Shown: in pieces, positions 14,736-30,727 of the stretch
Layout of the letters: each line of letters begins with the position of its first letter
Position numbering within the stretch: the first letter of the stretch is position 1
Assembly: GCA_001778095.1 (NCBI GenBank)
Contig: MFGA01000023.1
Coordinates: 112,891-146,356 of the forward strand
Direction: 5' to 3'
Source of the DNA: Candidatus Falkowbacteria bacterium RIFOXYA2_FULL_38_12
Lineage (GTDB): Bacteria > Patescibacteriota > Patescibacteriia > XYB2-FULL-38-15
Length of the DNA stretch: 33,466 nt
Program-made: the position numbers and the translations under genes
The notes under the pieces: model-generated
Database searches by the model: none
Told to the model about the DNA's origin: nothing
The model's input: the letters and a program-made list of their open reading frames with translations, nothing else

Positions 14736-15140
14736 CTATTTCTCGCTCAACTCCTGAACATATCTTATTACTGGCGGTGGCAAAACATCTGGATTATCTA
14801 AAATTTCCCGTTTTAGACTTTTAATATCTGACTCATTGAGTTCTCCTAATGGCTCTAGTTCAGTTATACCGTGGCTATCCGGGCGAGCCAAATGAGCTAA
14901 GCAATCTTTAAAATCATCTGTGGTCAATTTGATAAAACAAGTAACGAGTTTATATTGGGCGACTTTCCCTGGAGATGAATTTTTAAGCACAAAAAGACTT
15001 TCTCTTCTTTTAATAAATTTATTCACTAAATCTGGTTCGGATATTATTTTAGCCGCATAATAGGTAACCCCGTCATCTTTAACGGTAAGGTGAATGTACA
15101 CTTGATCTCTAAAACGATAAATATCTCCAAATTTTATCAT
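14736..15140 (-). CDS. Putative toxin partner (PanT-like) of PanA, unknown fold
   Basis: This 134-residue soluble protein is encoded directly after the Panacea antitoxin gene with a 4-bp ATGA overlap, the arrangement of a toxin-antitoxin pair. I do not recognise its family. The N-terminal 80 residues look beta-rich (FGDIYRFRDQVYIHLTVKDD, YYAAKIIS, YKLVTCFIKL). Residues 100-134 form an acidic helical tail. The opening GDIY followed by short strands is faintly like the PemK/MazF barrel, but no diagnostic residues confirm it. In known PanAT pairs the partner of PanA varies widely and is toxic, often to translation or membranes. The toxin role here is inferred from position only. Confidence 0.55.
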   Translation of the reverse strand: MIKFGDIYRFRDQVYIHLTVKDDGVTYYAAKIISEPDLVNKFIKRRESLFVLKNSSPGKVAQYKLVTCFIKLTTDDFKDCLAHLARPDSHGITELEPLGELNESDIKSLKREILDNPDVLPPPVIRYVQELSEK

Positions 15141-15673
15141 ATTTTAGACAATAAATCGATATCATCCCTATCTACAATGCAGTCGGGATCTTCAGCGGCT
15201 AACTGATAAGGAATTACTTCTAATTCTTTTGTCAATTTCCATGGCGCTTCTTTGTGAGAGACATCTACAATTTGTTTGGTGCTGTAGCCCCCAAACCTTT
15301 TAGTCACCTCCTCCATTGTATCCAGTTCGACCTGGCTAAAATATTCTTTATCATTTTCCGTAAAGGACTGCAGGCAAACAATCTTGTGTATATCATGTCT
15401 GCCGCAACAATGGACTTGAATTGTGTCTGATAGCAATGCTGTCTCCGGATCATCACTCACGGAATCAACCAAATTTTTTATGGTGGTTGGTATTGGCCCG
15501 AATTCAAGATGGTAATATGTTTCTCCCGTTATACTAACACCATATCTTTTTATCTGAGTAAAATCTAAAAAATAAAACAACTTCATCAATTTTGTCTTAC
15601 CCAAAAAAGCGGGATTTGTGTTATGACAAAGGTATTTAATTATTGCTTTCAATTTTGGCAAAGATATCGTCAT
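15137..15673 (-). CDS. panA: Panacea-domain antitoxin (PanA, SocA-like/DUF4065)
   Basis: This 178-residue protein has the Panacea/DUF4065 signature. The N-terminal LPKLKAIIKYL is followed by KTKLMKLFYFLDFTQIKRYG (residues about 26-45), then ITGETYYHLEFGPIPTTI and a C-terminal helical part. PanA proteins are antitoxins that directly neutralise many unrelated small toxins. The toxin candidate is the next gene, overlapping by 4 bp. The start at 15673 lies only about 14 bases after the -10 box of a consensus promoter, so the mRNA would have almost no leader and no Shine-Dalgarno sequence. Family assignment is confident; the antitoxin role follows from family and context. Confidence 0.85.
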   Translation of the reverse strand: MTISLPKLKAIIKYLCHNTNPAFLGKTKLMKLFYFLDFTQIKRYGVSITGETYYHLEFGPIPTTIKNLVDSVSDDPETALLSDTIQVHCCGRHDIHKIVCLQSFTENDKEYFSQVELDTMEEVTKRFGGYSTKQIVDVSHKEAPWKLTKELEVIPYQLAAEDPDCIVDRDDIDLLSKI

Positions 15674-15687
15674 ATTGGAAACATTGA

Positions 15688-15716
15688 TTTATACTAAATT
15701 TATCCACAACTGTCAA
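15688..15716 (-). promoter_or_regulatory. Consensus promoter for panA pair
   Basis: On the minus strand a perfect TTGACA (15716-15711) is 17 bp from TATAAA (15693-15688). The predicted start near 15681 is only about 8 bases before the panA ATG. Confidence 0.7.
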
Positions 15717-15795
15717 TGTTACTATACCATTTTTTACTAATTTTTACCACAGATTGTATAAATCACAGTAATCTGACTCCCCACACAGATTATTA

Positions 15796-15876
15796 CTATT
15801 TTAGATCGTCAAAAACGGTAACTTCACCATCACCTATTTCAAAGCCGTCACAAACAAAATAATTTACATTTTTTTC
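15796..15876 (-). other. In-frame open extension after the XRE amber stop
   Basis: Directly after the TAG stop of the XRE gene the same frame stays open for 26 codons to a second TAG at 15796-15798. The extension reads EKNVNYFVCDGFEIG then DGEVTVFDDLK, with protein-like alternation of hydrophobic and acidic residues and no start codon of its own. It could be a coding remnant left by a nonsense mutation, a readthrough tail, or chance. Bases 15717-15795 hold no gene; CAGATT/AATCTG half-repeats occur at about 15752-15791. Confidence 0.35.
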
Positions 15877-16257
15877 CTAATTATTTTTGATCAAATTAAC
15901 CAGATCGTCAATTTCTTTTTTAGTTGGCTTCTCATTTCTAACGGTTCTAAAAAAAGCCGGTAAAGCTTTTACTAAGTCCGCGCCCCTCATGATATAATCC
16001 GGAATAACGCCTTGGGCGATATTGGCGAGATCAATAAAATTGTAATACTCTTCTCCGCCGCTCTTGATCCCTAAAACACCAGCCCATTGCGACAAAGTTT
16101 GTTTGTCGTCAGGCGGCCGAGTCAGACCTCTTTCAATTTTACTCCAGTTACTGGGGTCGTAATTAACTTTTTTACAAATGTCACGTAAGCTTAAATTTTG
16201 TTTTGTCCTTAATTCCTTTAAAAATTCACCAAATTTTTTAAGATTAGCATTTCTCAT
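15877..16257 (-). CDS. XRE-family HTH regulator
   Basis: This 126-residue DNA-binding protein has a lambda-repressor-like helix-turn-helix at about residues 8-65 (FLKELRTKQNLSLRDICKKV, then YDPSNWSKIERGL). An alpha-helical tail (about 75-126) carries IPDYIMRG, ALPAFFRTVR and a final LVNLIKNN. This type often acts as a repressor or antitoxin encoded beside a small partner protein. No intact partner is seen: panA downstream has its own promoter 200 bases away. A perfect GTGTGGTA/TACCACAC palindrome covers the -10 box of its promoter, so autorepression is likely. The open frame after its TAG stop hints at a lost C terminus or lost partner. Confidence 0.85.
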   Translation of the reverse strand: MRNANLKKFGEFLKELRTKQNLSLRDICKKVNYDPSNWSKIERGLTRPPDDKQTLSQWAGVLGIKSGGEEYYNFIDLANIAQGVIPDYIMRGADLVKALPAFFRTVRNEKPTKKEIDDLVNLIKNN

Positions 16258-16281
16258 AAAAGTTAATGTTAAATAATTTAT

Positions 16282-16319
16282 GTGTGGTATTATTTTACCA
16301 CACTAAAAACTTTTGTCAA
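16282..16319 (-). promoter_or_regulatory. Promoter with palindromic operator for the XRE gene
   Basis: On the minus strand TTGACA (16319-16314) is 16 bp from TAAAAT (16297-16292). A perfect 8-bp inverted repeat, GTGTGGTA (16282-16289) and TACCACAC (16296-16303) around a 6-nt centre, lies over the -10 box. This is where a self-repressing HTH dimer would bind. Confidence 0.65.
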
Positions 16320-16323
16320 ATAC

Positions 16324-16361
16324 GCCTGTGAATAAATTTTCTCTCAAAATTATTTACGGAC
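16324..16361. other. A/T-rich imperfect hairpin after the five-gene operon
   Basis: AATAAATTTT (16331-16340) and AAAATTATT (16346-16354) flank CTCTC, with partial outer pairing of GCCTGTG and TACGGAC. It follows the last gene of the operon by 16 bases on the minus strand and may act as a weak terminator. The minus-strand centre TTTTGAGAGAAAA recalls the tips of the hairpins at 5344 and 24001. Confidence 0.3.
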
Positions 16362-16377
16362 AATTTTTCGCCTTGCT

Positions 16378-16815
16378 TTAAGTGTTTACCCAAATTAGAA
16401 TTATAACAATAACGACCACCAAGGTTGATAAATATATTACTATATCCGGAAAATAACCCATAAACTTTTCAAAACGACTACGTGAAATCATCTCATTAAA
16501 TTTTTCTCCGATGTAATTTTCAATAATTTCTTCGCTATTTCTCAACCCCATCTTTAAATCAACATTATAAAAATATAACGTCAGCGGAATTAAAAAAAGT
16601 AAAATTGAAATGATAACCCTAACAAAATTATTTAATTGTATTAATTGCTCATTAAAGGTGGCGATCACCAGTAGTGCGGCAAATATTGTACTTATTATTG
16701 GCAAAATTCCCATTCTCGCCTTAATCGTATTAAGTATTATGTCCAGTTGAATTTTTAATGCTTCTCTTTTTCCTTCAATCGGTAAACTTTCAAATTTTTC
16801 TTTATCTTGATTCAT
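16378..16815 (-). CDS. Three-helix membrane protein of the TIR operon
   Basis: This 145-residue protein has three clear hydrophobic segments at about 36-54, 64-84 and 121-143. A charged amphipathic N terminus (1-33) and a soluble loop of about 35 residues lie between helices 2 and 3. I do not recognise a named family. It is the last gene of the operon, 12 bases after the unknown 151-residue gene. Membrane proteins of this size in defence operons can be pore-forming effectors or membrane anchors for a sensor. Either is possible, and a host-membrane role unrelated to defence cannot be excluded. Base composition matches its neighbours. Confidence 0.65.
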   Translation of the reverse strand: MNQDKEKFESLPIEGKREALKIQLDIILNTIKARMGILPIISTIFAALLVIATFNEQLIQLNNFVRVIISILLFLIPLTLYFYNVDLKMGLRNSEEIIENYIGEKFNEMISRSRFEKFMGYFPDIVIYLSTLVVVIVIILIWVNT

Positions 16816-16827
16816 AAAAAAATTTCG

Positions 16828-17283
16828 CTAAAAGCGTATTATTTTAAGACATCTGTTTTTCTTGTCCCAAAAAACGGAAATCATCTCACCTTTTTTTAGA
16901 GATGTAGCAAATTCATCCGTAATCTCGATTCTTATGGTCTGAGAGAAATCGTCATAGTCAGTGTAATCTTTGGGAAATCCCAAATTTACAACTGGTTTAT
17001 TTAGTCCAAATGATAATTCAAATTTTATTTGGACTTCCGTATTCGGCTTTTTTCTTATCACCCAATGAAAAACTTTTTTACTAAACCCAACCAATATCTC
17101 AGCGAGAGTTAAATCACGCAAAAAATCGACTACGCTAAAATCTTTAAAAATTATCCTAGTAATTTCCCGAAAATCGATGTCTTTAATGATATACCGTTCG
17201 ATGCCTATCTCTTCTTCCGTGAAGATGGTTTTTATCTCCTCCAATTCTTCATCCGTAAAATTACCATTAACCAACAGTTTCAT
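16828..17283 (-). CDS. Unknown protein of the TIR operon
   Basis: This 151-residue protein has no family I recognise. The N terminus (MKLLVNGNFTDEELEEIKTI) looks like a strand plus an acidic helix. A central stretch at about 50-75 is hydrophobic but broken by charges (VVDFLRDLTLAEILVGFSKK), more like an amphipathic or membrane-associating helix than a true membrane span. The last 70 residues are beta-rich (VQIKFELSFG, QTIRIEITDEF, MISVFWDKKNRCLKIIRF). It starts 38 bases after the TIR gene and ends 12 bases before the membrane protein gene. Its fixed place between them suggests it is a working part of the system, perhaps a sensor or adaptor. The function is unknown. Confidence 0.6.
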   Translation of the reverse strand: MKLLVNGNFTDEELEEIKTIFTEEEIGIERYIIKDIDFREITRIIFKDFSVVDFLRDLTLAEILVGFSKKVFHWVIRKKPNTEVQIKFELSFGLNKPVVNLGFPKDYTDYDDFSQTIRIEITDEFATSLKKGEMISVFWDKKNRCLKIIRF

Positions 17284-17321
17284 ATTTACTTTTCTAATAA
17301 TCGAAACACTTAAATAAATAA

Positions 17322-18179
17322 TTACGAGTTAGATCCAAAAGAGAGCGTCTGATATTTCACGTTCGCCTGTAACCGACAATTTTCGTTCTGACTAAAACCA
17401 ATTAATTTACCATCCGTATCTTTTTGTAATTCAAATTCAGCTCCAAATTTACACTTGTATTTTTCGATGTTTATGCTACCAACTCGCGTGACCGTTTTTT
17501 CCAAGATGTCGTTTCCGTCCGGCAATATAACTTTGTATTGACTAATATTTTTTAATTCAAATTTCCGAGGTTTTTGAATTAAATTATCCCACTCTACTTC
17601 GAAATATTTATTTTTATGAAATATAATTTCGTCGGTGATCTCGCTATATCCACCATCTTCCGGAAAATCAATATAAAGTTTATCATCTCTCCTTAACGCC
17701 CGCATTTTATTAATCTCAATAAACTGATCTTCTGAGAACTTGCGCTCTTTGCCAGTTTCGTCTTGATAAACAGTTTTGTCTACCATCCCGAGTACACCGA
17801 GAGCCTGACGAATTTCTTTAAAACCAACGGCAAAGTCCCTCCTGAAATCAGCATAAATTCTTTCTTGAAGAAGGGGTGGCAATTGTTCTTTACAATTATC
17901 AATCAACGCAGGGATAATTTTAAAATTTCCCTTGACCTCCAACATAAACCCCGCATTAAGTTCTTTTTTTACCCAATGAGAATCGAGAGAATTTTTAGAT
18001 AAAATTGCAATGAGATGGTCTGAGGAATTTAACCCATCATTTATTTTATTAATCAAAGAGTCCCCCGCTTTCATCTCCCAAAGATAACACCAAACATCAA
18101 CCCCGTGCGACTTTAAAGCTTCGGAAAGATTAAGTACAAATTTTTTGTCTTGTGATGAAAAACTAATAAAAACTTTCAT
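17322..18179 (-). CDS. TIR-domain protein, candidate NAD-consuming effector
   Basis: The first 130 residues of this 285-residue protein form a TIR domain: MKVFISFSSQDKKFVLNLSE (strand A and helix A), then VDVWCYLWEMKAGDSL, HLIAILSKNSLDSHWVKKEL and IIPALID. Glu73 in SHWVKKEL is at the position of the catalytic glutamate of NADase TIR domains such as SARM1, so enzymatic activity is plausible. Residues about 135-285 are charged and beta-rich, with no family I know; they may sense a trigger. Its ATG overlaps the stop of the ImmA/IrrE gene by 4 bp, so translation is probably coupled. Bacterial TIR proteins commonly deplete NAD+ or make signals during phage infection; that role here is inferred. 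Confidence 0.85.
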   Translation of the reverse strand: MKVFISFSSQDKKFVLNLSEALKSHGVDVWCYLWEMKAGDSLINKINDGLNSSDHLIAILSKNSLDSHWVKKELNAGFMLEVKGNFKIIPALIDNCKEQLPPLLQERIYADFRRDFAVGFKEIRQALGVLGMVDKTVYQDETGKERKFSEDQFIEINKMRALRRDDKLYIDFPEDGGYSEITDEIIFHKNKYFEVEWDNLIQKPRKFELKNISQYKVILPDGNDILEKTVTRVGSINIEKYKCKFGAEFELQKDTDGKLIGFSQNENCRLQANVKYQTLSFGSNS

Positions 18180-18655
18180 ATTTGGTTAATTAGCCCCGTT
18201 TCCAGTAATCGGACGGATATCGCCTGCTCACTAACTTCATATCTTCGAGCCAACTCGGGAATTTTTAAGACTATTAATTTTTCCTTAATATCTTTTTCTA
18301 AAAAATCTTTTGGCACCAATAGCTCAGCAGCGAATTCATTCGCTTCTCTTTCCTGATCGGTTGGTCTATCGTAAATCCCCTCAATTATTTTTTCATCAAT
18401 CTCGTGCCCTAAAAGAAAATGACCCAATTCGTGAGCTAATGTAAATCTCTGTCGAACCTTCGGCTTGTCGCTATTAATACCTATGGCCAAAAGACCTTCC
18501 CGATTAATTATTATACCCGAAACATGATCGGGAAAGCTGGGATAATAAATAACCTTAATAGAAAATAAATTTGCTACTTTTTCTAGAGGGATTGGCAACT
18601 CCTTGATCTCTAATTTTTTTAATATATCTCTAATTTTATCCGTCAAACCTTTCAT
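18176..18655 (-). CDS. ImmA/IrrE family metallopeptidase
   Basis: This 159-residue zinc peptidase has the HExxH motif HELGH at 75-79 in FTLAHELGHFLLGHE. The downstream REANEFAAELLVP segment (about 103-115) supplies the third zinc ligand. The C terminus (LARRYEVSEQAISVRLLETG) resembles a helix-turn-helix. ImmA/IrrE enzymes cleave a paired XRE repressor in response to stress or phage signals and so relieve repression. The paired repressor is the gene 5 bases upstream, and the next gene is the TIR protein (4-bp overlap). This is the layout of a protease switch controlling a downstream effector. Confidence 0.93.
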   Translation of the reverse strand: MKGLTDKIRDILKKLEIKELPIPLEKVANLFSIKVIYYPSFPDHVSGIIINREGLLAIGINSDKPKVRQRFTLAHELGHFLLGHEIDEKIIEGIYDRPTDQEREANEFAAELLVPKDFLEKDIKEKLIVLKIPELARRYEVSEQAISVRLLETGLINQI

Positions 18656-18660
18656 AAATT

Positions 18661-18972
18661 TTATTTCTCCTGCTTTTTGGCATAATTTATAAAATTCTTG
18701 ATTATTTCGTCGTAATCAATATTTTGTTTGTCTTGTGCCTTGTCAGCCCTAAATTGACTAACAGTTATCGGCTTGTCAAAAAAATAGTCGTGATCAATGT
18801 TAAAAATATTAGCTAGCTTATGTAAATCACTGACACTAATATTTCTCTCACCTTTTTCAATATAGGAAATAAACGACTCAGAATAACCTAAAAGATCACC
18901 CAGATCTTTTTGGGTTAGCCCCTTTAATTGTCTTAATTTCTGGATTTTTCCTCCTATTTTTGCAATGTTCAT
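18661..18972 (-). CDS. XRE-family repressor, first gene of the TIR operon
   Basis: This helix-turn-helix protein has about 103 residues. The HTH domain (about 5-60) reads IQKLRQLKGLTQKDLGDLLG then YSESFISYIEKGERNISVSDL. A short acidic/basic tail of about 40 residues follows. It should repress its own operon and be the substrate of the adjacent ImmA/IrrE peptidase. The frame has an ATG at 18981, but the perfect -10 box ends at 18982, so the transcript should begin near 18975. I therefore chose the ATG at 18972 (MNIAKIGGK), which implies a nearly leaderless mRNA. The start at 18981 would need a different promoter. Confidence 0.88.
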   Translation of the reverse strand: MNIAKIGGKIQKLRQLKGLTQKDLGDLLGYSESFISYIEKGERNISVSDLHKLANIFNIDHDYFFDKPITVSQFRADKAQDKQNIDYDEIIKNFINYAKKQEK

Positions 18973-18981
18973 ATAAATCAT

Positions 18982-19010
18982 ATTATAATTTAGTCATAAA
19001 AATTTGTCAA
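18982..19010 (-). promoter_or_regulatory. Perfect consensus promoter of the XRE-ImmA-TIR operon
   Basis: On the minus strand TTGACA (19010-19005) and TATAAT (18987-18982) both match consensus exactly with a 17-bp spacer. Such a strong promoter must be held down in normal growth, which fits control by the XRE repressor. Transcription would start about 3 bases before the ATG at 18972. Confidence 0.8.
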
Positions 19011-19060
19011 GTGAATAATCTTTTAAACAAAAGGATAAAAACCAAAAAAACTTTTTTAAT

Positions 19061-19096
19061 TTGACAAATAAGCTGATAGTAGTAAACTCTAGAGTT
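19061..19096 (+). promoter_or_regulatory. Promoter with palindrome for the DUF1508 gene
   Basis: TTGACA (19061-19066) is 16 bp from TAAACT (19083-19088). The perfect 12-bp palindrome AACTCTAGAGTT (19085-19096) overlaps the -10 box and predicted start, so it may be an operator. The leader of about 90 bases holds a CTCGTT/AACGAG hairpin (19113-19131). This promoter diverges from that of the TIR operon, and both share the ATTTGTCAA/TTGACAAAT sequence. Confidence 0.5.
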
Positions 19097-19183
19097 AGAG
19101 TAAGCTTATTGTCTCGTTCCCTTAAAACGAGCTAATTCAACCGACTGGAATTTAGGGTGAAAGTTATAAAAGTAAATCTTTTT

Positions 19184-19366
19184 ATGGCAAAATTTCAACT
19201 GTCCAAAGACAGAGCTGGATATTTTTATTGGATTCTTAAATCTGATGAAAATGGGAAGACTATCGCTAAAAGTAGTGAGTCTTACAACTCTAAAAAGGGG
19301 GCGAGCGATTCAATTGCTTGGGTCCGCACTAATGCAAAGACCGCCAAACTTGAAGATCTATCCTAA
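19184..19366 (+). CDS. DUF1508 (YegP-like) small protein
   Basis: This 60-residue protein carries one DUF1508 repeat: KFQLSKDRAGYFYWILKSDE, then NGKTIAKSSESYNSKKGASD and a helix SIAWVRTNA. The YegP family usually has one or two such repeats, so this is a complete single-repeat member. Function is unknown; the fold is a small alpha/beta unit. The frame extends back to a GTG at 19157, but the family begins at the ATG at 19184. It is the only plus-strand gene of the island, driven by its own promoter and ending at a 42-bp palindromic terminator shared with the restriction gene. Confidence 0.85.
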   Translation: MAKFQLSKDRAGYFYWILKSDENGKTIAKSSESYNSKKGASDSIAWVRTNAKTAKLEDLS

Positions 19367-19370
19367 CCCA

Positions 19371-19412
19371 AAAAACAAAAAGAATAAGCGGCCGCTTATT
19401 CTTTTTGTTTTT
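19371..19412. terminator. 42-bp perfect palindrome, bidirectional terminator
   Basis: The sequence from 19371 to 19412 is its own exact reverse complement: 21-bp arms with no spacer, centred on GCGGCCGC at 19388-19395. A-rich and T-rich flanks make it a terminator in both directions, between the DUF1508 gene (plus) and the restriction gene (minus). The stop codon and last four codons of the minus-strand gene lie inside the right arm. Confidence 0.85.
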
Positions 19413-20397
19413 CCCCTTCAACAATCTTAATCTCCTCCTCGCTCAACCCATACAATCCATAAACTTCCTCGTCAATTTTTTTATCGGTTTGGAAAATTTC
19501 GTCTTTGATTTTTTGCCATTCATTGGAATTTTCCGCAGAGCCTCCAATTTTTTTATATGACTCCACTAATGTTTTAGCTAATTTTATTAATTCTCCCTGA
19601 TCATCCGTGGAAACTTTTGGGATTGGGAGTCTATCTGTCACAAAATTATCAAAATGCATTGTTCTTACAGCCTTCCCGTAAATAAATCTGTAAACATACC
19701 AATTTACAAGTTCAGAGTTTAACAACGACCAAATAAAATAATTCGAATATTGCTTGTCTATAGCGAGTTGATTTATCGTATCAAGAATAATATAATTTTT
19801 ATCGTCCGAAATCGCACTGATAATTTTTATATGATCAGTCGGATTTTCTATATGTGCAACAATATTCTGCACAAGAACAGAATTTGGTTTTATAAAAGCC
19901 TTATCGTCAAAAACTTTTTCTTTGTTAATTTTTCCCTTGATTTCCCTTATTCCCATTCTACTTATCGACGCTCCGCCCAAAACCTCCAATTCGCCCACCT
20001 CGCCCACTTCTTTTTGTAGCATTGCCCCGCGTTGATTTGTCGCCACATCTTTCAGCATCAAAGAATTTTTTAACATTTTTCGAGCCACAATAATTTCTTC
20101 ATCAGAAACCCCGTTGAGAAAAAATCCAAACTCCTTAGCTGTCTTTTTATCAATTTTTCCTAATATCAAAATCTGTTCGTCTTTTGCTATACCACTTTGG
20201 TAAATCTTATGGCTCACATCTTTTTCAACAATAATCACAACTTGCTCTAATTTTACTTCTTTCCAAACTTTACTGCCGTCGATAATTATTTTTAAGTCGT
20301 CCCAAACTAGCTGCCGAATCTTTTTATAATTTGAGGCGAAAGTGAAGGCTTTTGGAATAATAAAACCCAGAAATCCTTCTTTTCTTAATTCAGTCAA
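19396..20397 (-). CDS. Type IIG restriction-modification enzyme, C-terminal part (split gene)
   Basis: This 333-codon frame continues the methyltransferase of the upstream frame. GFLGFIIPKAFTFASNYKKI follows motif IV in intact Eco57I-like enzymes, so it belongs to the same polypeptide. The rest (about 120-310) should be the target-recognition domain, which sets the DNA sequence recognised, and the end EEVYGLYGLSEEEI is typical of the family C terminus. Its first usable codon is a TTG at 20397 overlapping the upstream TGA. Reading the frame backward gives LFIKKSL directly before TELRKEG, which fits the expected joined protein. It is therefore probably not an independent gene, unless translational coupling at TTGA makes it a separate subunit. 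Confidence 0.75.
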   Translation of the reverse strand: MTELRKEGFLGFIIPKAFTFASNYKKIRQLVWDDLKIIIDGSKVWKEVKLEQVVIIVEKDVSHKIYQSGIAKDEQILILGKIDKKTAKEFGFFLNGVSDEEIIVARKMLKNSLMLKDVATNQRGAMLQKEVGEVGELEVLGGASISRMGIREIKGKINKEKVFDDKAFIKPNSVLVQNIVAHIENPTDHIKIISAISDDKNYIILDTINQLAIDKQYSNYFIWSLLNSELVNWYVYRFIYGKAVRTMHFDNFVTDRLPIPKVSTDDQGELIKLAKTLVESYKKIGGSAENSNEWQKIKDEIFQTDKKIDEEVYGLYGLSEEEIKIVEGEKQKE

Positions 20398-22043
20398 AGA
20401 CTTCTTGATAAATAAAATGCCGTATCCGTTGAACCAATATCATATTTATCTTTGAAAAAATTTTGATCTTCCTTGGAAAGCTCAGCTCCATACGGCGGAT
20501 TACCAATCACGCAATCAAATCCGCCTTGCTTGAAAACCTCGGGAAATTGTTCTTCCCAATTAAACGGTTTTTTGTCGCGGTAATTTTTACCGAAAAACTT
20601 TTCCAGTTCTTCGTCCGTACCGGAAATGAGCGAATTGCCGTTTTTGATATTGCCTCCCAGGCTCGGCAATTTTGTTTGACTGTCAAAAGTATTCAAAAGC
20701 AAGTTAAGTCGCGCGAGTTCTACGGCCTGCTCGTCCAAGTCAACACCATAAATATTGTTCTGCAAAATCTGAATTTTCAAAAATCCGTCCGGCTTGGCGC
20801 CGAATTCTTCATATTTTTTTATCAAAAAATTCATGGCCGCGACCAAAAATGATCCGCTACCGCAAGCCGGATCTAAAATTTTAATTTTTTGCAAATCATC
20901 AACGCTCTTGCACTTGTCTAAGATCGAACCAAGGGCGTTTTGAACAATATAATCCACGATAAATTTTGGCGTATAATAAATTCCTTGCTCTTTTCTTTTT
21001 CTGTGGCTCTTAATTAAATCTAAATCTTGATCGAATAATCTCTTTTTTGTTTGCTCCAATTTATATCCCAAATAATTTTCATAGACCGCTCCCAAAACAT
21101 CTGCCGGAATGGCGGAAAAGTCATACTCAAAATAATCCTTATCGCCATACAATCTATTGATTACTTTTTCGGTTGCCCCGCTAAATTCTTCCCATTTTTC
21201 AAAAGGATGCGGAGAAAATAAATTAGAGTTATAGATTTTATCAAGCTCGCGGAATTTTTCTACCATAATCGTCCAAGGGCTGGATTTTCCGGTTTGTCCG
21301 CTTGATTTATATTGATGCAAAAGAGGAATCAAAGTGGGTGGCTCAATTTTTCTATCTTCGGCCACCCGAATAAATATTAAGCGATCTAAAAGCTTTTGAA
21401 CGCCTTCGTCTATCAAATGATCCGGCACATCTTTATTCCAAGTTCTAAAAGCCTCGGTCAGCTCTCTACGACAATAATTCAAATCTTCGGCCAATTTTTC
21501 GGTTACCGAGACTTTTTGTATTTTTTTACCATGCTTTTCGGCCTCTTTATCCAAACTATCAGACAAAAAAGCTTCTTTGGATAAAAACCACAGCTGGTCA
21601 AAACGATCCAAATATTCATTATATGGAATCTCAAAATACCTTTTACCGGCTAAAGACTTTTCCGGACTCAAGGCATTGAAAACAATTAGACTCTCAAAAT
21701 CGGTTAACACTGCCCAAGTAACGCCCTTGTTCCAAGAGTATTTAATTGATTGTTTGGCGTAATCATCCCTGTGTAAATCAGCCGATATTTTTTTGGCCTC
21801 CAAGTAAAATTTTATCCGGCTGTTTACATAAAAACCATAATCAACCCGATCGCCGGAAATCTGCTCTTCAAGGGTTATTTCTTCCTTACTTTGAAAATTC
21901 CATCCCAAAGCCTCAAATAACGGTTCTATAAATCCGCGCTTTGTTTCCTCTTCACTGTATCTGGCAATTTTACCGGCGGCTTTTTCCGCTTCATACTTCT
22001 CCACCAATTTTTTTATTTCTAATTTTACGGCTTCTTTTTCCAT
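20394..22043 (-). CDS. Type IIG restriction-modification enzyme, nuclease and methyltransferase part (split gene)
   Basis: This 549-residue frame carries an N-terminal PD-(D/E)xK nuclease (Asp68 in RVDYGFY and the E-x-K of LEAK at 82-84). A helical linker follows, then an N6-adenine methyltransferase with the SAM motif DPACGSGSF at 391-399 and catalytic NPPY at 515-518. Cutting and modification in one chain is the type IIG (Eco57I-like) plan. The frame breaks after STDTAFYL, giving SRSL and a TGA, and resumes in the -1 frame in the next open frame. The break lies in a short TTTA repeat. As it stands the enzyme lacks its recognition domain and is probably inactive, unless frameshifting or phase variation restores it. 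Confidence 0.85.
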   Translation of the reverse strand: MEKEAVKLEIKKLVEKYEAEKAAGKIARYSEEETKRGFIEPLFEALGWNFQSKEEITLEEQISGDRVDYGFYVNSRIKFYLEAKKISADLHRDDYAKQSIKYSWNKGVTWAVLTDFESLIVFNALSPEKSLAGKRYFEIPYNEYLDRFDQLWFLSKEAFLSDSLDKEAEKHGKKIQKVSVTEKLAEDLNYCRRELTEAFRTWNKDVPDHLIDEGVQKLLDRLIFIRVAEDRKIEPPTLIPLLHQYKSSGQTGKSSPWTIMVEKFRELDKIYNSNLFSPHPFEKWEEFSGATEKVINRLYGDKDYFEYDFSAIPADVLGAVYENYLGYKLEQTKKRLFDQDLDLIKSHRKRKEQGIYYTPKFIVDYIVQNALGSILDKCKSVDDLQKIKILDPACGSGSFLVAAMNFLIKKYEEFGAKPDGFLKIQILQNNIYGVDLDEQAVELARLNLLLNTFDSQTKLPSLGGNIKNGNSLISGTDEELEKFFGKNYRDKKPFNWEEQFPEVFKQGGFDCVIGNPPYGAELSKEDQNFFKDKYDIGSTDTAFYLSRSL

Positions 22044-22169: not shown

Positions 22170-23996
22170 ATGAAAAAAATCCACCTTCTTTTTATTACTC
22201 CAGCCATTATACTGGCTTGCGGATTACTTAGTTTGTCATTTCCAACGGAGGTAAAAGCCGCCCCTTATTTAGTTTACAGCACTCCCCAGAACGGAGCGGT
22301 AAATGTTGATGTCAACACTGATGTTTCTTTTAAATTTAATGAGAGAATAGCCGGCATTAAGTTTGATCGCGCGCCCCTTGATAAGAGATGGGGTAGCGGT
22401 GTTTGGAATACGGATCATACTCTTTTTACCATGAAAAGAATCGGCGCTTTCGCTTACAATACTGAAGCTAAGGTTAGTTTTACTGTTACTGACATGAAAA
22501 AAAATACTTATAGCAGCGCTATTTATTTTAAAACCGCCCCGGAAGTAATTTCTCCAATCCCGGAAATATTTTCTCCGACATATTCCAAGGTCAATGCCAG
22601 TCCCCTTTCTGTTCCGGCCGACGGGTCGAGCGAAACAATAGTGACTATTTTTGCCATGGATAGATGGAACAATCCATTACCCAACAGATATGTCAGTTTA
22701 AGTTCAAGTCGCGGAGTATCTGATAATATAAAAATCGGCAATGCCTATACTACAAATAATGGTAGCGCTACATTCCTTGTTTCTTCGAGGACTGCCGGCA
22801 CATCGACTTTTTCTGCCGTAGTCGAAGGTAATAAAATAAATCAAACTGCCACAGTAACTTTTACTGAAGTAAAAAACAATTCTGTTTCAAATTCAAGATC
22901 AGACATTTATGCTTCAAAATACTCTGTTGACAATAACGGTTCTTCTTACGCAAGAATTACGGTCATTGCCAGAAATTCAAATAACGAACCCTTAAACGGA
23001 AAATTTGTATATCTCGTTTCAAATGGTGGTTCATCTTATTGCATTAAAAATGTTTCTACTACAACCGACAACTCGGGTGTTGCTTTATTTGATATTTCCT
23101 CAAGAGATGTTGGGTCAATAGCTTTTTCCGCGTATATTGACGGAGTAAAAACTGATCGAACGATAACTATCAGCTTTTATCAATCATTTGATGCGACAGT
23201 GAGCGCCTCCAAGTCGTGGGTTAGTCCTTGGGGTCTTGTCTTTGTGGCTAACGGTTCCGGTAACTCTATTATCGTTACCGCCAGAAATAATAATAATGAT
23301 GTTTTGCCTGGAAAAAATATTGTTTTGTACTCAAGCCGCGGATCAATAGATACTATAGCAACTAAAAATAACGTAACAAATTCATCGGGTGTTGTTTTCT
23401 TTACGGTTTCCTCTTTAACGCCGGGCAATGCTTATTTCACTGCTGTAATTGATGGAGTAACCATTAAAGAAAAAGCTCTGCTTTCCTTCTCCTCTGTTTC
23501 AAACTATTCAAACATTTATCAGGACGATGTCTTCAAAGATCCCGATTCTTCAGCAGTCTATTATTATGCCAAAAACGGTAAACGCTACGTTTTCCCAAAC
23601 CAAGGAATTTATTTCTCTTGGTATAAAAACTTTGATTCAGTTAAAACCGTTCCTGCTTATGTTGTAAAATCCATTCCTTTCGGCGGTAATGTTTTAGCGA
23701 AGCCGGGTACCTCCCTTGTTCAATTTTTTACCATAGGTACCCCTCCAACTAAAAAAATCGTTGATCCTAAGGTTTACGCACTGACTGAAAACGGACAACT
23801 ACGCTGGATTAGATCTGCTTCTGCCGCGACCTCAATATTTGGAAAAAGTTGGAAGAAAAAAATTGTTACGGTTCCGGAAATGTACAAAAGCAACTATGCC
23901 AACGGCGTGACCGGATTTGATATTTATGGACCAGCCGACTACGACGCCAGTTATGTTAAAAATCGTGTAACCTCGATTTCGTCAATAATCAAATAA
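22170..23996 (+). CDS. Secreted multi-Ig-domain surface protein
   Basis: This 608-residue secreted protein has a signal peptide at 1-30 (ending near VKAAPY). A SbsA-type Ig-like domain (about 31-125) follows, opening with STPQNGAVNVDVNTDVSFKF. Three invasin-like Big_1 domains come at about 140-235, 245-335 and 345-440, each with the repeated unit ARNNNNDVLPGKNI...YSSRGS...SGVVFFTVSS. The last 160 residues form a separate aromatic-rich domain with two similar halves (YYYAKNGKRYVFPNQG and VYALTENGQLRWIRS). No membrane anchor or sortase motif is visible, so it is probably held by the C-terminal domain or secreted. Adhesion or cell-surface structure is inferred. Confidence 0.88.
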   Translation: MKKIHLLFITPAIILACGLLSLSFPTEVKAAPYLVYSTPQNGAVNVDVNTDVSFKFNERIAGIKFDRAPLDKRWGSGVWNTDHTLFTMKRIGAFAYNTEAKVSFTVTDMKKNTYSSAIYFKTAPEVISPIPEIFSPTYSKVNASPLSVPADGSSETIVTIFAMDRWNNPLPNRYVSLSSSRGVSDNIKIGNAYTTNNGSATFLVSSRTAGTSTFSAVVEGNKINQTATVTFTEVKNNSVSNSRSDIYASKYSVDNNGSSYARITVIARNSNNEPLNGKFVYLVSNGGSSYCIKNVSTTTDNSGVALFDISSRDVGSIAFSAYIDGVKTDRTITISFYQSFDATVSASKSWVSPWGLVFVANGSGNSIIVTARNNNNDVLPGKNIVLYSSRGSIDTIATKNNVTNSSGVVFFTVSSLTPGNAYFTAVIDGVTIKEKALLSFSSVSNYSNIYQDDVFKDPDSSAVYYYAKNGKRYVFPNQGIYFSWYKNFDSVKTVPAYVVKSIPFGGNVLAKPGTSLVQFFTIGTPPTKKIVDPKVYALTENGQLRWIRSASAATSIFGKSWKKKIVTVPEMYKSNYANGVTGFDIYGPADYDASYVKNRVTSISSIIK

Positions 23997-28641: not shown

Positions 28642-29337
28642 CTATTTTATTTCATCAAGGCTTCCCAGCTTGATCTCGCGCAACCTGTTCTTTGTTGCTT
28701 TATAAATATCTTCAAGTTGTTCCTCGCTCATTTCTCTGACACTTTCTTCCACTGATTCAAATTCTTCATCCGAAATATAGCTCTCTTCTTCGGAAAAATC
28801 TTCATCACGAGCGACGCCCTCCCCGTCTTCGTTTTCATCTCTTTCTTTTAAACGCGCCACATTCAAAATCGTACTCTGGACAGCCTCGGGATTTTTTACG
28901 CCGGAAAATTCCAACTCCAAATTATCAAGGCTTGTTTTGACGCGAATTCTTCCATAATGAAATATCGTTTGCCAAAATCCTTTTATTCTGCAAGAAACAT
29001 CTTTTACTTTTTTGTGAGGAACTTCTGAAATTATTTGGTCAAAAAATCCTCGCTGATCAATATCTATTACCCTTTTACTTGTAATAACAAAAACATTAAG
29101 ATACCATATCGCTATTTTGCGAATGCCATAAAGAAGACCGGACAAAATCGAAAAAGAAAAGATAATCACGCCCCAATAACCTAATCTGAAAAGAGGAAAA
29201 AGAAAAAAGAAAGGAACTAAAATCAAAAGAAGACTAAGACCGATATTCGGCCACAAAGTCAGAAAATAACGACGAACAACTTGAATAATCTCTTCTTCCG
29301 GTCTTAAATTGATTTTATTAGTGATCCGGTTCTCCAT
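28642..29337 (-). CDS. PH-domain (bPH2/DUF304) membrane protein
   Basis: This protein has about 231 residues. Two adjacent membrane segments (about 25-75: LTLWPNIGLSLLLILVPFFF and YWGVIIFSFSILSGLLYGIR) are followed by a bacterial PH-like domain (about 78-150) with WYLNVFVITSKRVIDIDQRG and GRIRVKTSLDNLELEFSGVK. The C-terminal 70 residues are very acidic and then helical. Such YdbS/DUF304 proteins are membrane proteins of unclear role. The reading frame extends to 29439, but that part overlaps the end of murD, and the ATG at 29337 (MENRITNK) gives the family N terminus 34 bases after murD. It lies between murD and the FtsB-like gene in a wall/division cluster. Confidence 0.82.
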   Translation of the reverse strand: MENRITNKINLRPEEEIIQVVRRYFLTLWPNIGLSLLLILVPFFFLFPLFRLGYWGVIIFSFSILSGLLYGIRKIAIWYLNVFVITSKRVIDIDQRGFFDQIISEVPHKKVKDVSCRIKGFWQTIFHYGRIRVKTSLDNLELEFSGVKNPEAVQSTILNVARLKERDENEDGEGVARDEDFSEEESYISDEEFESVEESVREMSEEQLEDIYKATKNRLREIKLGSLDEIK

Positions 29338-29371
29338 TGGGATAATTATAGCACAACTATTGATATATTGC

Positions 29372-30727
29372 TTATTTGAGGGCAGAAATCTCTTTTTCAA
29401 AGTGTTCTCCCCGGTCATACTCGTTTTTAAACATTCCAAAGCTTGTTGAGGCCGGAGAAAATAAAACTATATCGCCTTTTTCAGCCATGCCTTTTGCCGA
29501 CCCGACCGCCTCTTTCATGTTTTTGGAAATAACGAGAGGCGAGCTGTAGCCGGACTCCCGCAACGCTTGGCTTATTTTTTCCGTAGCCGTGCCATTTAAC
29601 AAAACAACTCCTTTGGTGTGATTTTTAATCGATTGCGCCAAATTTTTAAAATCCAAATTTTTATCCGTGCCCCCGGCAATTAAAATTATATTTTTAGCTT
29701 TTTCTCCGAGAGAAGAAAGAGCGGCAATCGTCGCTTCGGGCATGGTGGAAGTTGTATCATTGTAATATCGCGCGCCGTTTTTTTCTTTTATAAACTGGAG
29801 ACGACCCGGAACACCGACAAAAGATTCAACAATCTTTTTTATCTTTGAGCTTGGAATTTTAAAAAGTCTGCCGACAGCCATAGCCGCGGCGATATTTTCG
29901 AGATTATGTTTTCCAACAATTTTTACTTTCCAATTCTTAGGAACATCCTCGGCGCTAAACCAAATCACTTTTCCTTTGGCCATTTTAGCGAACATCTTGG
30001 ACTGTATACAATTTTTGTTCAGGATTAAAAAATCTTTTTTTGTTTGATTTTTAAAGATGGCTGCCTTGTCATTAAGGTACTTTTTAAAATCGTTTTTATA
30101 GTAATTCATGTGGTCGCTAAAAATATTGGTAACAACAGCAACATGCGGACTTATTTTTAAATCTTCCCATCCCTGAAGTTGCCAACTGGATAATTCCAAG
30201 ACAGCTAAATCATCTTTTTTTATTTTACGAACAAGAGGTAATGTCGCCATCCCCTTAATATTGCCGGCCAAATAAACTTTCTTTCTTGTCTCTTTCAACA
30301 ATTCATAAATTAAAGTAGCTGTCGTCGTCTTCCCTCTCGTTCCCGTAACACCAATCACGGGACATGGCGACTCCAGCCCGAACAAAGCATCATCCATCAA
30401 TACCGGTATCTCATTTTTTCTAGCCTCTTCGATATAAATAGAATCCAGGGGGACCCCCGCTGTCTTAAAAATAAAATCGGCTGTTTTAAAATCTTCCAAG
30501 CGATGCTCACCTAGAATAAACTTCATTTTATGGATATTTTTTCCTTCCTGCTTTAATTTACTATAAAAATTTTGAACCTCCTTGATTGATGGAGCAAGCA
30601 TTTTTTTACTCTTGAGGTCAGTTACTGTTAATCTGGCTCCTTGGCTTAATAAATATTTAATTAAGCCTGTCCCCCGCCCCAAAAGACCCAAGCCCATTAC
30701 TGTTATATTTTTATTATTAAAATCCAT
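29372..30727 (-). CDS. murD: UDP-N-acetylmuramoyl-alanine--D-glutamate ligase MurD
   Basis: This cytoplasmic Mur ligase of about 451 residues adds D-glutamate to UDP-MurNAc-L-Ala in peptidoglycan precursor synthesis, using ATP. The N-terminal Rossmann-like domain starts with ITVMGLGLLGRGTGLIKYL. The P-loop GVTGTRGKTTTATL lies at about 128-141, NIFSDHMNYY near 215, and YNDTTSTMPEATIAAL near 310 in the C-terminal domain, all Mur ligase hallmarks. The length matches MurD. I chose the ATG at 30727; a TTG at 30754 in the same frame is less likely. It follows the export-like gene closely and precedes the PH-domain gene. Confidence 0.95.
   Translation of the reverse strand: MDFNNKNITVMGLGLLGRGTGLIKYLLSQGARLTVTDLKSKKMLAPSIKEVQNFYSKLKQEGKNIHKMKFILGEHRLEDFKTADFIFKTAGVPLDSIYIEEARKNEIPVLMDDALFGLESPCPVIGVTGTRGKTTTATLIYELLKETRKKVYLAGNIKGMATLPLVRKIKKDDLAVLELSSWQLQGWEDLKISPHVAVVTNIFSDHMNYYKNDFKKYLNDKAAIFKNQTKKDFLILNKNCIQSKMFAKMAKGKVIWFSAEDVPKNWKVKIVGKHNLENIAAAMAVGRLFKIPSSKIKKIVESFVGVPGRLQFIKEKNGARYYNDTTSTMPEATIAALSSLGEKAKNIILIAGGTDKNLDFKNLAQSIKNHTKGVVLLNGTATEKISQALRESGYSSPLVISKNMKEAVGSAKGMAEKGDIVLFSPASTSFGMFKNEYDRGEHFEKEISALK

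Follow-up and report, generated by a model that had tools for sequence, protein, structure and literature searches.

A TIR gene cassette possibly governed by a CapH-CapP-like switch in a Candidatus Falkowbacteria genome

The window analysed here is the whole 33,466-nt stretch of contig MFGA01000023.1 from Candidatus Falkowbacteria bacterium RIFOXYA2_FULL_38_12, and all coordinates are positions within it. The genome comprises 914,259 bases in 23 contigs (98.59% complete), and the window lies on contig 23; its small size points to a bacterium of the candidate-phyla type. We focused on a unit of five minus-strand genes encoding an XRE-type helix-turn-helix (HTH) protein, a stand-alone ImmA/IrrE metalloprotease, a TIR domain protein and two orphan proteins, which a preliminary description of the sequence had proposed as a candidate new defence system. 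In the reading developed below, for which we judge the case evenly balanced, the unit is a TIR cassette derepressed by DNA damage under a CapH-CapP-like switch.

A five-gene unit behind a consensus promoter

The unit and its promoter comprise the following features.

18982..19010, minus strand: sigma-70 promoter of the five-gene unit, TTGACA-17-TATAAT, perfect consensus
18661..18972, minus strand (open reading frame opens at 18981): gene 1, CapH-like XRE/HTH repressor (Pfam HTH_3, 3.8e-16; PADLOC capH, 8.7e-10)
18176..18655, minus strand: gene 2, CapP-like ImmA/IrrE metalloprotease with HELGH at residues 75-79 (Peptidase_M78, 4.2e-23; PADLOC capP, 5.4e-30)
17322..18179, minus strand: gene 3, TIR domain plus orphan C-terminal half (TIR_2, 8.7e-29; alignment to solved TIR structures)
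16828..17283, minus strand: gene 4, orphan of 151 amino acids without a membrane helix (no Pfam family; coding by codon usage)
16378..16815, minus strand: gene 5, orphan three-helix membrane protein of 145 amino acids (hydrophobic stretches; codon usage)

The open reading frame coordinates confirm the layout given in the preliminary description, with gaps of 5, -4, 38 and 12 bases in order from gene 1 to gene 5, and its promoter (19010-18982) proved to be the sole 12-of-12 match in the window; any perfect promoter occurred in just 3 of 200 dinucleotide-shuffled windows. The first ATG of gene 1, at 18981, abuts the -10 box and lies upstream of the usual transcript start, so the in-frame ATG at 18972 is the likelier start, and the gene 1 mRNA would then be almost leaderless. 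The frames of genes 2 and 3 share four bases (ATGA), which argues for co-translation. Using a codon-usage score trained on 11,273 codons from the same genome, in-frame values of 0.155, 0.183 and 0.157 bits per codon were obtained for genes 3, 4 and 5, respectively, and 0.166 for the C-terminal half of the TIR protein, while every other frame of these four stretches scored below zero. Codon usage thus marks all four as real coding sequence.

Genes 1 and 2 and their relatives

An HTH gene followed after five bases by a stand-alone ImmA/IrrE gene is the gene order of CapH-CapP, the controller of CBASS (cyclic oligonucleotide-based antiphage signalling system) and Bub operons that responds to DNA damage and single-stranded DNA. 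As reported, CapP is activated by single-stranded DNA and cleaves CapH (PMC10904395; PMC13373217). Among 5027 PADLOC models, capP was the best match for gene 2, covering profile positions 5-153 of 242, and six plasmid relatives span a nearly identical part of the profile. The HELGH zinc motif of gene 2, noted in the preliminary description, was recovered. For gene 1, capH was one of many matching HTH models, several of which scored better (best, HTH_VI at 6e-13).

The capP model also won for a Vibrio relative of gene 2 that lacks an HTH partner and any nearby defence annotation (4.7e-28), and the genomic context of the relatives was therefore examined. A tblastn search with gene 2 returned 138 plasmid records, and 10 loci were chosen, non-randomly, from 40 listed. 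An annotated HTH gene lies upstream of the protease in eight of the ten, with an antisense frame annotated in between at locus L053, and in those eight the HTH-ImmA pair and the gene flanking it on the other side diverge. Six of the ten loci adjoin genes annotated as ThiF (Bub-like; five loci) or CBASS (one locus, with a cyclase and a patatin gene), and multiubiquitin was verified by Pfam in two of the ThiF loci. Gene 2 shares 31-40% identity with seven of the plasmid proteases, and the HExxH motif, E102, E104 and R149, the last in the C-terminal HTH, are invariant across the eight aligned sequences (gene 2 and 7 of the 10 plasmid relatives). In viral contigs, an alignment of gene 2 with these seven relatives matched 376 loci, and among the best 80 of them 11 carried an XRE relative of gene 1.

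By sequence, genes 1 and 2 look like a CapH-CapP controller: they share with it the adjacent, promoter-proximal repressor and protease genes, the conserved HExxH, the C-terminal HTH arginine and defence neighbours. The suggestion that the XRE-ImmA pair is a protease-controlled repressor is supported by the plasmid pairs and their ThiF or CBASS neighbours, and the regulatory half of the unit is of a kind already known. Unlike in CapH-CapP loci, the cargo consists of a co-directional TIR gene and two orphans, it is yegP that diverges from the controller, and the likeness of the repressor is limited to the HTH. The putative controller sits at a perfect promoter beside defence genes, and its cargo matches no known system.

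The TIR protein and two orphan genes

Pfam places the TIR domain of gene 3 at residues 3-121, leaving a C-terminal half at about 131-285. In the alignment with the five solved TIR chains shown, of which two are alike across the matched region, Trp69 and Glu73 fall on the W and E; the chains include AbTIR, an NAD hydrolase, and Cat1. The glutamate named in the preliminary description is therefore at the conserved catalytic position, and NAD+ hydrolysis or signal synthesis is predicted. Likeness to the solved proteins (AbTIR, 3h16 and Cat1) covers residues 3-100 and the matches stop at about residue 100, whereas the C-terminal half of gene 3 has no sequence counterpart among them. Genes with detectable similarity to this TIR domain are rare in the clade, occurring in 4 of 379 genomes of the phylum and 3 of 380 of the class, its own genome counted in each.

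The C-terminal half yielded no credible Pfam family at E values up to 10; Ribosomal_S17e (0.11, TIR protein residues 125-285) was the single match and fell below the cut-off. Matches to the whole protein extended past the TIR domain to residue 203 in genome G066 (28% identity) and to residue 164 on Streptomyces clavuligerus plasmids. Residues 131-285 alone gave an E value of 5.1 against the G066 protein and at least 0.19 against the open reading frames of nine other TIR loci. Pattern scans with this half returned 42 stretches in genome contigs and 6 in viral contigs, none of which was confirmed, and plasmids gave no match. In phages, where the C-terminal half was searched only within the whole protein, two records matched, over the TIR domain only. 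An AlphaFold single-sequence model of residues 125-285 had a mean pLDDT (predicted local distance difference test) of 44.9, exceeding 65 only in a four-strand stretch at about 225-264.

Elsewhere, a TIR gene in the vicinity of HTH and ImmA genes was seen once, on a plasmid of Rhodoferax antarcticus (L048, 2944-6333). There, genes for a TIR protein, an unknown protein, an HTH protein, a second unknown protein and an ImmA/IrrE protein lie close together, in a gene order that differs from that of the window and with the ImmA gene on the opposite strand. Three further TIR plasmid loci were inspected; two have no similar arrangement and one carries no annotation.

Gene 5 has three hydrophobic stretches, starting at residues 36, 64 and 125, as expected from the three membrane helices described earlier; gene 4 has none. 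Neither gene matched a credible Pfam family at E values up to 10, nor any PADLOC or PHROGs model, and in NCBIfam gene 5 matched only SLATT_4 (E 0.28; 11 bits, cut-off 55), far short of a SLATT membrane effector. For gene 4, 20 of 379 phylum genomes matched at E ≤ 0.1, including its own, the others at 9.5e-4 or above and at chance level; in the class sample the sole match at E ≤ 0.01 among 380 genomes was its own genome, and the single match to a solved structure had an E value of 0.42. Gene 5 matched 32 of 380 genomes at E ≤ 0.05, namely its own plus noise, the best of the others (3.4e-4) being interrupted by stop codons. Pattern scans with both genes gave 10 stretches in viral contigs and 15 in genome contigs, none confirmed, no plasmid match was obtained and the phage matches were at chance level (E 0.1 and 0.2). 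The single-sequence AlphaFold model of gene 4 reached a mean pLDDT of 34.5.

By eye, gene 4 has a helix ending in W-x-x-R/K followed by a strand, as in EACC1 two-gene systems (PF19953). This assignment was rejected, as it matched one helix and hhalign against nine EACC1 proteins, all nine of which match PF19953, gave a probability of 0.11% for gene 4 (0.06% for gene 5 and 0.13% for gene 3). A search for the PF19953 family in the same genome and one Streptomyces plasmid found nothing, and the positive control likewise gave no signal.

The reach of these searches differs. The TIR domain alone and gene 2 alone drew a blank in viral contigs, where the gene 2 alignment found 376 loci, which indicates that single-sequence scans are insensitive; the pattern scans therefore exclude close relatives only and leave room for distant relatives of the two orphan genes and of the TIR C-terminal half. 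A TIR model recovered the window TIR at 2.2e-50 but only 7 of 10 seeds in leave-one-out runs, and may therefore overlook roughly one TIR gene in three. Literature searches, with coverage short of most subscription papers, found no ImmA/IrrE-TIR operon among the papers listed, one of them a preprint on TIR-like NADases, and no report of TIR proteins in candidate-phyla bacteria.

With no second copy of the cassette in any set searched, its reading as one system draws only on operon structure, and the proposal that the five genes form a recurring system has found no support so far: neither orphan gene was encountered elsewhere, and nor was the C-terminal half of the TIR protein. The co-occurrence check suggested earlier consequently speaks neither for nor against it. 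The genes could instead have come together by chance, genes of unrelated function, acquired horizontally, having settled behind a CapH-CapP pair, genes 4 and 5 among them as orphan passengers. This account would fit the solitary occurrence of the combination, the rarity of TIR relatives in the clade and the codon scores of the five genes (0.105-0.183), which are below those of most long genes in the window, several of which belong to the training set and are favoured by it. Arguing the other way are the one promoter for all five genes, the short distances between them, codon usage typical of coding sequence and the lack of breaks in any of the five frames, and we regard chance assembly as decidedly improbable.

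A Thoeris-like arrangement was also weighed, in which the TIR protein would sense phage and make an ADP-ribose-type signal, gene 4 would bind it and open or assemble gene 5, and CapH-CapP would set only the expression level. Both this unit and Thoeris (a ThsB TIR protein with ThsA or another effector) place a TIR enzyme with partner genes in one operon; here the TIR protein has the catalytic glutamate, and of its two partners one is soluble and the other a membrane protein. The TIR domain gives moderate matches to ThsB models (5.4e-9 at best) and one far under its cut-off to the type III Thoeris model ThcB4 (1.1e-4; 21 of 220 bits), but it scores higher with other TIR models, among them PADLOC PDC-S66 (2e-21) and the NCBIfam retron TIR (3e-22). 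The Thoeris effector is defined by a SIR2-SLOG, Macro-TM or caspase-like domain; no such family passes for genes 4 and 5, which hold no recognised effector domain, and no ligand fold can be read from the low-quality structure models of gene 4 and of the C-terminal half of TIR. We consider this arrangement unlikely. As for CBASS, no CD-NTase (the nucleotidyltransferase of that system) was found among the eleven open reading frames at 14736-22043 (Pfam for nine plus two of them, PADLOC for ten).

Neighbouring genes and a proposed mechanism

The unit is flanked by further genes on both sides.

19184..19366, plus strand (open reading frame opens at GTG 19157): YegP/DUF1508-like gene, divergent from gene 1 (PF07411, 1.5e-11)
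19061..19088, plus strand: promoter-like TTGACA-16-TAAACT toward yegP, 10 of 12; such sites arise by chance in the region
19373..19410, no strand assigned: hairpin with T-runs where the restriction-modification and yegP genes converge (-19.4 kcal/mol, z -5.57, 0 of 200 shuffles)
19396..22043, minus strand: type IIG restriction-modification gene in two overlapping frames, 20394-22043 and 19396-20397 (PADLOC REase_MTase_IIG, 1.8e-86 and 1.3e-12; Eco57I)
15877-16257, minus strand: XRE gene, next after gene 5, with its own 11-of-12 promoter
15137-15673, minus strand: SocA/Panacea gene (Pfam)
14736-15140, minus strand: partner gene of the SocA/Panacea unit

A defence context is seen on the yegP and restriction-modification side of the unit. 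The type IIG gene is split near 20394 and is thus either inactive or marred by an assembly error; its TaqI_C match is just below cut-off. The hairpin at 19373-19410, a probable bidirectional terminator, has 17 pairs and holds an 18-base perfect palindrome (19383-19400). The -35 boxes of gene 1 and yegP share the nine bases TTGACAAAT in mirror orientation. In one of the ten plasmid loci, YegP lies between the controller and an annotated ThiF gene.

The three genes at 14736-16257 are likely a separate toxin-antitoxin unit. The promoter of its XRE gene is overlapped by the palindrome GTGTGGTA-N6-TACCACAC (16282-16303), whose arm length was equalled in 22 of 300 shuffles. This toxin-antitoxin-like unit directly downstream of gene 5, together with the blurred boundary between immune and stress pathways described by the authors of the CapK-CapS survey (PMC13373217), would be in keeping with a maintenance module in which the XRE-ImmA pair is regulator or antitoxin, TIR the toxin, gene 4 its direct inhibitor and gene 5 an anchor, serving addiction or stress dormancy and not phage defence. 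We find such a module distinctly unlikely, given the nearby restriction-modification gene and the annotated ThiF or CBASS genes beside six of the ten plasmid proteases.

In a check for an empty insertion site, typA from elsewhere in the window proved present in all three family genomes, with 51% identity in the other two; in the stretches around it, only the window gene at 28642-29439 also matched (27-29% identity). Matches to a 608-amino-acid invasin-like protein with three Big_1 stretches (22170-23996, plus strand) occur in 22 of 38 genomes including its own, with up to nine in one genome, and most of them fall in the C-terminal part.

The window resembles an arrangement already published for another Cap regulator, CapK-CapS. 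The survey took in 443 CapK-CapS loci: yegP comes after the pair in 57, a restriction-modification system lies immediately upstream in 88, and 12 stand ahead of Type IV Thoeris, which is itself a TIR system (PMC13373217). Common to both are a regulator of the damage-responsive kind and these three kinds of neighbour, although the survey does not say that all three coincide at one locus. The regulator differs, being a protease/repressor pair here and a kinase/repressor pair there, and no caspase-like effector was found in the window. The proposal of a new defence system stands in part: the cargo is new, while the controller is known and, on the same survey, a damage-responsive Cap regulator ahead of a TIR system has already been described.

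For the TIR cassette under a CapH-CapP-like switch, the sequence itself shows the gene content, the promoter and operon spacing, the conserved catalytic residues, the relationship of gene 2 to proteases of HTH-ImmA pairs near Bub-like and CBASS genes, and the yegP and restriction-modification neighbours. The scheme that we infer from these takes in each activation step, what the TIR enzyme does, the parts played by genes 4 and 5 and the outcome for defence. In a quiet cell, the gene 1 repressor would keep the promoter region off. Single-stranded DNA arising from phage replication, restriction cuts or damage would activate the gene 2 metalloprotease, which would cleave the repressor, and capH, capP, tir, gene 4 and gene 5 would then be co-expressed, possibly with the divergent yegP. 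The TIR protein would use up NAD+ or produce a nucleotide signal; gene 5 would act at the membrane, and gene 4 would be a soluble partner that either regulates TIR or, as a receptor, couples its product to gene 5. The outcome would most likely be growth arrest or death of the infected cell. The switch half of this scheme is drawn from homology, and its second half, arrest of the cell by the TIR enzyme and the membrane protein, from domain logic only. Genes 4 and 5 could be a receptor and a membrane effector, TIR regulators or passengers, the single instance being compatible with each. Overall, the unit looks like an immune or self-killing cassette with one known example, and it is probably abortive.

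Several observations weigh against this scheme. The capP model is the best one for stand-alone ImmA proteins in general, the ThiF annotation of plasmid locus L059 was not verified by Pfam over the stretch covered, and gene 1 is only 17-24% identical to the seven HTH partners, with likeness restricted to the HTH. Between gene 1 and yegP no sequence is conspicuous as an operator, the best palindrome there (arm 6) being equalled in 242 of 300 shuffles. Neither the best 80 of the 376 viral CapP-like loci nor the 10 plasmid loci held a TIR gene detectable with the TIR model, and no relative of either orphan gene or of the TIR C-terminal half turned up in them; since these three lack credible relatives in the sets searched, comparative evidence does not link them to TIR.

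A bolder version would make the unit a distinct TIR immune system of a genome-reduced bacterium built on the CapH-CapP circuit, the TIR C-terminal half serving as a sensor or assembly domain, genes 4 and 5 as a new pair of receptor and membrane effector that responds to what the TIR enzyme makes, and yegP, on the far side of the common promoter region, as an arm regulated together with them. We regard this version as doubtful.

If the cassette works as proposed, CapH-CapP, a damage switch described for CBASS and Bub operons, would extend to a TIR cassette, which would also contribute two protein families and a TIR-linked domain that have no known relatives. A 0.9-Mb genome would combine a restriction-modification gene, yegP, a Cap switch and immune cargo, offering a testable link from restriction cuts through single-stranded DNA to a second-line TIR response.

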